Shown piece after piece: positions 39,784 to 42,795 of a stretch of 64,000 nucleotides of DNA. Source of the DNA: an uncultured Pelagibacteraceae bacterium (GTDB taxonomy: Bacteria > Pseudomonadota > Alphaproteobacteria > Pelagibacterales > Pelagibacteraceae); NCBI GenBank assembly GCA_902634885.1, contig CACPLR010000005.1, forward strand, positions 44,225 to 108,224, written 5' to 3'. The translations under genes were made by a program, and so were the position numbers. Within the stretch, counting starts at the first letter, position 1, and each line of letters starts with the position of its first letter. Under the pieces are notes generated by a model. The model was not told the origin of the DNA, did not search any database, and was given only the letters and a program-made list of their open reading frames with translations.

Positions 39784-41277
39784 ATGAAATTATTTTTTCT
39801 ACTAGGAAACCAACTATTTGACGAAAAATACTTAGAAAAGTTTAAAAAAGATCATATTTTTTATATGGCCGAGGATTTTCAACTTTGCACTTATGAAAAA
39901 CACCATAAAAACAAAATTTTACTGTTTCTCTCGTCCATGCGGTCGCATGCCGATAGGTTAAAAAAAAGTAAATTTAAAATTGAATATTCAACAATAGAGG
40001 AAAAGACATTTAAACTAGACTACACAGAAAAATTAAAAAAAACTATAAAATCAAAAAAAATAAATGAAATTTCCAGCTTCGAAATTGAAGATAAATTTTT
40101 TGAAAAAAAAATAAGTCAGTTTACCAAAAAAGAAAATATTAAATGGAATATTGTTCAATCACCAATGTTTTTGAATTCAAGACAAAATTTTAAAAAATAT
40201 CTATCAAAATCAAAAAAACCTTTTATGGCTGTATTCTATAAAGATACACGAAGAGAATTAAATATTTTAATTAAAAAAGATGGAACTCCCGAGGGAGGAA
40301 AGTGGAGTTTTGATGAAGATAATAGGAACAAACTACCAAAAAATATTTCAATTCCAAAATTTCCAAAAATAAAAGAGACATCTCATACAAAAAAATTAAA
40401 ACACATCATTGAAAAATATTTTAAAGATCATCCTGGTAACGTGGAAAACTTTTGGTTTGCAACGGAATATGAGGATGTCATCAAGCTATTAAATTTTTTT
40501 ATTAAAGAAAAATCTAATCTGTTTGGTGATTATGAAGATGCTGTTGATCAAAAAGATAATATCTTATTTCACAGTGCTTTAAGTCCCTATTTAAATTTAG
40601 GATTAATTACTCCTGAGCTTATATTGAAAAAAATTCTAGATTTTCATAAGAAAAATAAAATTAGATTAAATTCATTAGAGGGATATATCCGTCAAGTAAT
40701 AGGGTGGAGAGAATTTATGAGAGGTATTTATCAAAGTTATTCTAATGAAATGGAAACGAGAAACTTCTTTAAACAAAATAGAAAAATGAAAAAAAGTTGG
40801 TACGATGGATCAACTGGCCTTCCACCATTAGATTACGCAATCAAGAACGCGTTAAAATATGGATGGTCACATCACATAGAGAGATTAATGATTTTGTCTA
40901 ACATTATGAACCTTTGTGAAATTAAACCTAACATCGTTTATAAATGGTTTATGGAAATGTTTGTTGATTCATCTGATTGGGTAATGGTTCCAAATGTTTA
41001 TGGTATGGGCTTGTTTAGTGATGGAGGTATTTTTGCAACCAAACCTTACATTTGTGGATCCAGTTATTTTATGAAGATGATGGACTTTAAAAAAGGAGAA
41101 TGGTGCAACACAATGGATGGTTTGTACTGGAGGTTTATCAATAGGAATAGAAATTTTTTTTTAAAAAACCCAAGATTGTCGATGATGGTAAGAATTTTTG
41201 ATAAAATGAAAGCTGAAAGAAAAAAACTCATATTAGCCGAGGCAGAAAAATTTATAAAACAAAATACAATCCAGTGA
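39784..41277 (+). CDS. Cryptochrome/photolyase family protein (FeS-BCP/Phr-related type)
   Basis: LLGNQLFDEKYL N-terminus; ALSPYLNLGLITPELIL, GYIRQVIGWREFMRGIY, GWSHHIERLMILSNIMNLCEIKP, VPNVYGMGLFSDGGIFATKPYICGSSYFMKM. Confidence 0.93.
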   Translation: MKLFFLLGNQLFDEKYLEKFKKDHIFYMAEDFQLCTYEKHHKNKILLFLSSMRSHADRLKKSKFKIEYSTIEEKTFKLDYTEKLKKTIKSKKINEISSFEIEDKFFEKKISQFTKKENIKWNIVQSPMFLNSRQNFKKYLSKSKKPFMAVFYKDTRRELNILIKKDGTPEGGKWSFDEDNRNKLPKNISIPKFPKIKETSHTKKLKHIIEKYFKDHPGNVENFWFATEYEDVIKLLNFFIKEKSNLFGDYEDAVDQKDNILFHSALSPYLNLGLITPELILKKILDFHKKNKIRLNSLEGYIRQVIGWREFMRGIYQSYSNEMETRNFFKQNRKMKKSWYDGSTGLPPLDYAIKNALKYGWSHHIERLMILSNIMNLCEIKPNIVYKWFMEMFVDSSDWVMVPNVYGMGLFSDGGIFATKPYICGSSYFMKMMDFKKGEWCNTMDGLYWRFINRNRNFFLKNPRLSMMVRIFDKMKAERKKLILAEAEKFIKQNTIQ

Positions 41278-41399
41278 AAAAACAAAATCTACCTTCTAAA
41301 ATATGCCCAATATGTAAAAGATCATTCGCATGGAGACGAAAATGGAAGTTGAACTGGGAACGAGTTAAATATTGTTCTAAAAAGTGTTCGAGATCTTAA
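41274..41399 (+). CDS. DUF2256-like small zinc-finger protein (absent from ORF track)
   Basis: GTG start overlaps the photolyase stop (GTGA). Translation V/MKKQNLPSKICPICKRSFAWRRKWKLNWERVKYCSKKCSRS*, with DUF2256 CPxCxRxFxWRxKW..W..V.YCS..C pattern. Confidence 0.9.
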   Translation: MKKQNLPSKICPICKRSFAWRRKWKLNWERVKYCSKKCSRS

Positions 41400-41400
41400 G

Positions 41401-41628
41401 TTAGCAGCAAGAGCAACTACTTTTTTTTTCTTTTTTAATCTTTTCAGGATTATCTTTTTCTATTTTATTTTGAGTAACTTTAGGTTCTTCAAAAACTTTT
41501 TTCTTTAAAATTTTATCCTCTATATAAGCATACAATGAGCTAAAACCGATTTTAGAAGCTCTCTTTTCCTCATAGGCTCTTCTACCTTTTAAGTTTTCAA
41601 TAATTTCTAATATTTGAGGATTATTCAT
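41401..41628 (-). CDS. Small protein with cysteine-rich C-terminal tail (SCSCC)
   Basis: 75-aa ORF, K/E-rich linker, C-terminus KKSSCSCC; nothing else explains this interval. Confidence 0.6.
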   Translation of the reverse strand: MNNPQILEIIENLKGRRAYEEKRASKIGFSSLYAYIEDKILKKKVFEEPKVTQNKIEKDNPEKIKKEKKSSCSCC

Positions 41629-41658: not shown

Positions 41659-42795
41659 TTACAAAATATGCTCTATAATTTTGGGAATATATTTTTTAAA
41701 ATTAAAAAATCCTTTGTTACAATATTTCCACGCGTTTTGATCAATGTTTCTATATAAAAAATGTATCTCTAAATGATTCGAATTTAAAAAATCTAAATTC
41801 TCACCTATTGTTGGATATAGACCACAACAATTTTCAATATTTGTTATTTCACTAATGTTAATAATTTCACAATCAATAGATTGATCTTTTAACCTTTTTT
41901 CTTGATCTTTAATTAACTGAGACTTAAATTTCAATAATTTCTCACTTAGCTTTATAGATCTATTATCATTTTTATTAGAAACTAAGTAAATTTTCTTAAA
42001 GTTTTTATCTTTAAAGTCAGTAATTTCAAACGAGAGATTATTTTCAAAAACCAACAGGTTTTTTTCTTCAACGTTTTGTGGGTTTGTAAAATTTTGTTTT
42101 ACTATATTATAAGATTTTTCAGAAACTTTTGGAGGAGCATTTTCATTTAATTTAACATTTTGAAATCTATTGTTAGTGAATTTTTTAATATTCCATTCAC
42201 TCGCTAGGTAATGCTTCCCTTGAGTTTGAATACCCGCAACCCATCTCCATCCAAGAGTATTTGATGCAGCATCACCATCAAAAAGATGCTGCATAAAAAA
42301 TTCCGCACCTAATTGCCAAGGTAATTCTAAAGTAAAAATCCAGATACTAGCAAACCACATTCTTGTATGATTATGTAAATAATTATTCTCTTTAAGTTCG
42401 TTTACCCATTCATTGAAGCAATCTATGTTTGTTTTTCCCTCAATTGCAGACAGGTAATCTTGATTATTTTGAAATTCGTTTTTTATCTTATCTAATTCTA
42501 GAAGATAATCTGTCCAAACATTAGGTCTTAATTCTAACCAACCTTTCCAATATGTTCGCCATAAAACTTCCTGAATAAATTTTTCATTTTTTGAGAAAGA
42601 AAATTTACTTAGTGATTTTTTTATCACCTCTTTTTCATTAATTATCCCATGAGTTATATATGGTGATAAACAAGAAACATTTAACCTTTTTTCAGGACCA
42701 AAATCAAAATTTCTTAATCTAGAATATTCTGCAAGATTATTTTCAACAAAATTATCTAATTGATCTATGGCCTTTGCCCTTGAAGCTTCAAACAT
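41659..42795 (-). CDS. Photolyase-like protein containing the FAD-binding helical domain but no N-terminal photolyase alpha/beta domain
   Basis: SCLSPYITHGII, FIQEVLWRTYWKGWLE, NNYLHNHTRMWFASIW, FMQHLFDGDAASNTLGWRWVAGIQTQGKHYLAS. Confidence 0.88.
   Translation of the reverse strand: MFEASRAKAIDQLDNFVENNLAEYSRLRNFDFGPEKRLNVSCLSPYITHGIINEKEVIKKSLSKFSFSKNEKFIQEVLWRTYWKGWLELRPNVWTDYLLELDKIKNEFQNNQDYLSAIEGKTNIDCFNEWVNELKENNYLHNHTRMWFASIWIFTLELPWQLGAEFFMQHLFDGDAASNTLGWRWVAGIQTQGKHYLASEWNIKKFTNNRFQNVKLNENAPPKVSEKSYNIVKQNFTNPQNVEEKNLLVFENNLSFEITDFKDKNFKKIYLVSNKNDNRSIKLSEKLLKFKSQLIKDQEKRLKDQSIDCEIINISEITNIENCCGLYPTIGENLDFLNSNHLEIHFLYRNIDQNAWKYCNKGFFNFKKYIPKIIEHIL

Follow-up and report, generated by a model that had tools for sequence, protein, structure and literature searches.

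The locus examined here raises the question of whether a photolyase-like protein that starts with its catalytic domain, and carries an unassigned domain behind it, represents a new architecture. It lies in a stretch of 64,000 nucleotides (the window) of contig CACPLR010000005.1, from a Pelagibacteraceae (SAR11) genome. A preliminary description, made from the sequence alone, had proposed that the C-terminal part was either a fused new domain or a permuted photolyase alpha/beta domain. The rearranged architecture is real, yet it was already described in 2020 as the hallmark of the NewPHL photolyases, and the window protein is very probably a SAR11 member of that class. The gene and its parts are as follows.

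41659..42795, minus strand: gene of inverted-topology, NewPHL type, 378 amino acids (open reading frame, clade membership, AlphaFold2 model)
42181..42783, minus strand: N-terminal helical FAD/catalytic domain, residues 5-205 (FAD_binding_7, 1dnp alignment, residue mapping, Foldseek)
42076..42180, minus strand: linker without regular secondary structure, residues 206-240 (AlphaFold2 model)
41662..42075, minus strand: C-terminal alpha/beta domain, the "Z-domain" of the literature, residues 241-378 (AlphaFold2, Foldseek, alphaproteobacterial conservation)

The FAD domain and its active site

The open reading frame (ORF) at 41659-42795 (minus strand) begins with ATG and has no internal stops; its closest named relative shares 93% identity. 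Homologues throughout the genus agree with it in start, length and C-terminal part, and the gene was found in 105 of the 118 Pelagibacteraceae genomes sampled. Both domains are under purifying selection, the ratio of nonsynonymous to synonymous substitution (dN/dS) between SAR11 pairs being 0.05-0.17 in the flavin adenine dinucleotide (FAD) domain and 0.09-0.21 in the C-terminal one.

The sole Pfam family on the protein was FAD_binding_7 (residues 73-197, E = 1.2e-17), and the same scan found no N-terminal DNA_photolyase or DPRP domain. Residues 5-196 aligned to residues 203-395 of the E. coli photolyase (1dnp); therefore, the ~200 residues with which a conventional photolyase begins do not stand at the N-terminus here. 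The Pfam match, this alignment and the shared start bear out the earlier claim that the protein opens with the FAD domain and has no N-terminal antenna domain. The full-length AlphaFold2 model (pLDDT 90.5, pTM 0.90; the five models span 77.9-90.5) matched photolyases over the FAD domain only, which is the outcome that a sequential aligner such as Foldseek would be expected to give. Both halves are predicted confidently by AlphaFold2.

The residues associated with repair of cyclobutane pyrimidine dimers (CPDs), E76, W79, M146, N179 and W185, correspond to E274, W277, M345, N378 and W384 of E. coli Phr, numbered as in the literature with Met1 omitted. The FAD contacts Y24, S41, L43, S44, R80, N142, D173 and D175 are also retained, and neither set of residues varied in any of the 33 family members or the 17 class I proteins. 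W183 and W160 correspond to W382 and W359 of the E. coli electron-transfer triad, whereas the third tryptophan (E. coli W306) is missing from all 33 family members and present in all 17 class I proteins. The window protein has a Trp dyad in place of the triad.

The C-terminal domain

Residues 241-378 modelled alone gave about 138 residues with five strands alternating with helices (pLDDT 93.7, pTM 0.84), and the part behind the FAD domain is alpha/beta in the model, as had been suspected. The order of strands and helices is that of the photolyase alpha/beta domain. In the Foldseek comparison that the preliminary description had recommended, the best PDB matches of this domain were the iron-sulfur (FeS)-type photolyases 5lfa, 9hnk, 3zxs, 8ijy and 4dja. 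Six FeS-type photolyases and one eIF2B chain made up the top seven matches, at prob 0.99-1.00 and TMq 0.54-0.60, and the photolyase alignments covered the full domain, the matched part of the target not being printed in the output.

The domain could instead be a Rossmann-like one of unrelated origin, joined to a FAD domain that stood by itself, its resemblance to photolyases being convergent, and several observations speak for this alternative or weaken the case for a photolyase origin. The Foldseek E-values were no better than 0.015-0.03, and eIF2B and unrelated proteins followed below the top matches. No Pfam family was found for the C-terminal part, and a hidden Markov model of the domain found no convincing family among PDB sequences, with a weak match to the SDR protein BdcA (E = 0.009). 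Alignment by hhalign to a DPRP-domain alignment gave a colinear match of 94 columns from the first strand with a score of 25.7, which none of 149 block shuffles reached (maximum 18.5); the comparison is nevertheless indecisive because an aldo-keto reductase control profile scored nearly as high (25.3). The match to class I N-domains did not rise above shuffles, 3 of 149 of which reached its score. Homology to the photolyase alpha/beta domain is thus weak when judged by sequence. Convergence is nonetheless unlikely in view of the first place of the FeS-type photolyases in Foldseek, the photolyase-like order of strands and helices, and the colinearity with DPRP from the first strand. In addition, the C-terminal domain of a FAD-first Deinococcus protein begins, by eye, with the photolyase-like strand motif VVWVHGDRLSPTNEAL. 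It is therefore probable, mainly on the modelled structure, that the C-terminal domain is a relocated photolyase alpha/beta domain. Of the two alternatives in the preliminary description, the permuted domain is the better supported, since FeS-type photolyases headed the Foldseek matches and the strand and helix order fits.

Class membership and proposed function

A layout with the FAD domain first and the alpha/beta domain last is that of the NewPHL class of Emmerich et al. 2020 (NAR 48:12845), as presented in PMC13274461 and PMC9426592, so the protein does not represent a new kind. The preliminary description had allowed for a short photolyase subfamily and had named an already characterised class as grounds for giving up novelty; NewPHL (PMC13274461, PMC9426592) is such a class. 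In a tree of FAD domains, the window protein fell inside a 34-member clade (support 98/98) of same-layout proteins of about 400 amino acids across Alphaproteobacteria, including Roseobacteraceae, Sphingomonadaceae, Azospirillaceae and Caulobacteraceae, and the domain order was thus recovered in other taxa, where it had been proposed to look for it. Class I (99/96) and the distant FeS-BCP proteins (100/99) formed separate clades, and FeS-type short photolyases were weakly sister to the window clade (90/58).

The protein shares with NewPHL, which equals Prochlorococcus Phr7 (PMC9426592), the inverted topology with a short C-terminal alpha/beta domain, the conserved CPD active-site and FAD-binding residues, the Trp dyad, the alphaproteobacterial distribution and the lack of an FeS cysteine cluster, a trait stated for Phr7 (PMC9426592). 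The listed members include those of D. shibae, M. mesophilicum, E. litoralis and R. centenum (PMC13274461), and the D. shibae NewPHL has a Trp dyad only (PMC8948257). SAR11 members differ in being AT-rich, in their length of 378-390 amino acids, and in a divergent C-terminal domain with 13-23% identity to non-SAR11 members. One point against the assignment is that it rests on layout, residues and a clade of same-layout homologues, and not on the characterised NewPHL sequences A8LJA9 of D. shibae and M7YZC8 of M. mesophilicum.

Other classes fitted less well. The SPL (Xu et al. 2021) and the reversed-order Phr4/5/6 proteins (PMC9426592) also have a FAD domain near class I and are the sister group mentioned above, but the FeS-containing ones are marked by a four-cysteine FeS cluster, and a cysteine cluster directly after the FAD domain was seen in loci L235 and L138. 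The window protein has no such cluster there, and the corresponding cysteine pair was not found in the SAR11 alignment. The L235 protein, encoded on a Deinococcus plasmid (2899-4269), has an N-terminal FAD domain, the cysteine cluster and then, by eye, a photolyase-like alpha/beta stretch; it looks, by eye, like a second inverted lineage. Among solved structures, the N-terminal alpha/beta domain of the FeS-BCP or PhrB-type (6-4) photolyases comes closest to the C-terminal domain of the window protein, but these photolyases follow the conventional order, DPRP and then FAD domain. Class I CPD photolyases such as E. coli Phr share the FAD domain and CPD-repair residues and differ in their N-terminal DNA_photolyase domain, full Trp triad and WQW motif (WRW in the window family). 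With the DASH cryptochrome model TIGR02765 the window protein scored 56.7 bits, below the cut-off of 317.

It is very improbable that the protein keeps the photolyase fold but acts as a cryptochrome-like light sensor; cryptochromes share the fold, but the CPD-contact residues, including the N378 equivalent, are all invariant, and characterised NewPHL members repair CPDs. Truncation, decay of a class I photolyase or a pseudogene, which the missing N-terminal domain might suggest, was rejected because homologues across the genus share the starting point and the length, the clade is separate from class I and purifying selection acts on both domains.

Starting from the directly observed layout, conservation, active-site residues, Trp dyad and clade membership, a function can be proposed for this NewPHL-type protein. 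The helical domain would bind FAD, which when reduced would donate an electron under light and so repair CPDs. Photoreduction of FAD would proceed through the two tryptophans W183 and W160, not three. The C-terminal domain, which probably corresponds to the antenna-type domain at the N-terminus of ordinary photolyases, would pack against the FAD domain in a sealing role, and an antenna pigment is probably absent. The NewPHLs described in 2020 reportedly lack this pigment, have their FAD site sealed by the C-terminal domain, and are said to occur often in place of DASH photolyases. NewPHL and SPL proteins repair CPDs in single-stranded DNA and have an inverted domain topology (PMC13274461). By analogy with the D. 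shibae and M. mesophilicum NewPHLs, the window protein should prefer lesions in single-stranded DNA.

Neighboring genes and distribution

Two features lie next to the NewPHL-type gene.

39784..41277, plus strand: FeS-BCP/PhrB-type photolyase-like gene (DPRP and FAD_binding_7 by Pfam), convergent with the NewPHL-type gene
41274-41399, plus strand: DUF2256 ORF overlapping the end of the FeS-BCP-type gene

The pairing of NewPHL and FeS-BCP-type genes recurs in many SAR11 loci, and in one non-SAR11 alphaproteobacterium (L180, 7912-10667) they form a tandem pair whose stop and start overlap. It is doubtful, and rather a long shot, that the C-terminal domain descended specifically from the FeS-BCP (PhrB/DPRP-type) antenna domain, that NewPHL is a recombinant of two photolyase lineages with adjacent genes, and that the SAR11 pair cooperates in single-strand and (6-4) photorepair. 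What interest the case holds lies in the SAR11 distribution and in a possible tie between the C-terminal domain and the FeS-BCP domain.

No DASH gene scored above the model cut-off in the 118 Pelagibacteraceae genomes, a result consistent with NewPHL filling in for DASH. As NewPHL is near-universal in SAR11, this suggests that the inverted photolyase fills a single-strand repair role in SAR11 cells. SAR11 is among the most abundant bacterial groups of the surface ocean. The analysis adds modestly to a known class and does not reveal a new kind of system; its minor additions are the near-universal occurrence, the lack of DASH genes above the cut-off and the frequent position beside an FeS-type photolyase and DUF2256.

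A wider sample of 399 Pseudomonadota genomes yielded matches (E <= 1e-30) in 24, every one in Alphaproteobacteria. The non-SAR11 matches are about 370-500 amino acids long (start codons uncertain) and have a C-terminal alpha/beta part with the common motif WD...WP.A..GFF.FK..IP; the exception, L138, is of FeS type. Full-length relatives were not found in phages, where matches were partial and confined to the FAD domain, and outside SAR11 the wider gene neighborhood was mostly not conserved. Plasmid-borne relatives, annotated as "FAD-binding domain-containing protein", occur in Ruegeria, Peteryoungia, Asticcacaulis and Novosphingobium, and on plasmids of the first three (L236, L237, L238) the gene has AarF/ABC1/UbiB kinase genes next to it or close by.

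Two minor observations concern the same genome. A 75-amino-acid ORF at 41401-41628 (minus strand) has no Pfam family, ends in SSCSCC and is conserved at 51-100% in some SAR11 loci. A fourth, divergent photolyase-family gene (L002, 718-2175) has only a partial DNA_photolyase match in its first half and reads SQFQMQSG at the position expected to hold the WxW motif.
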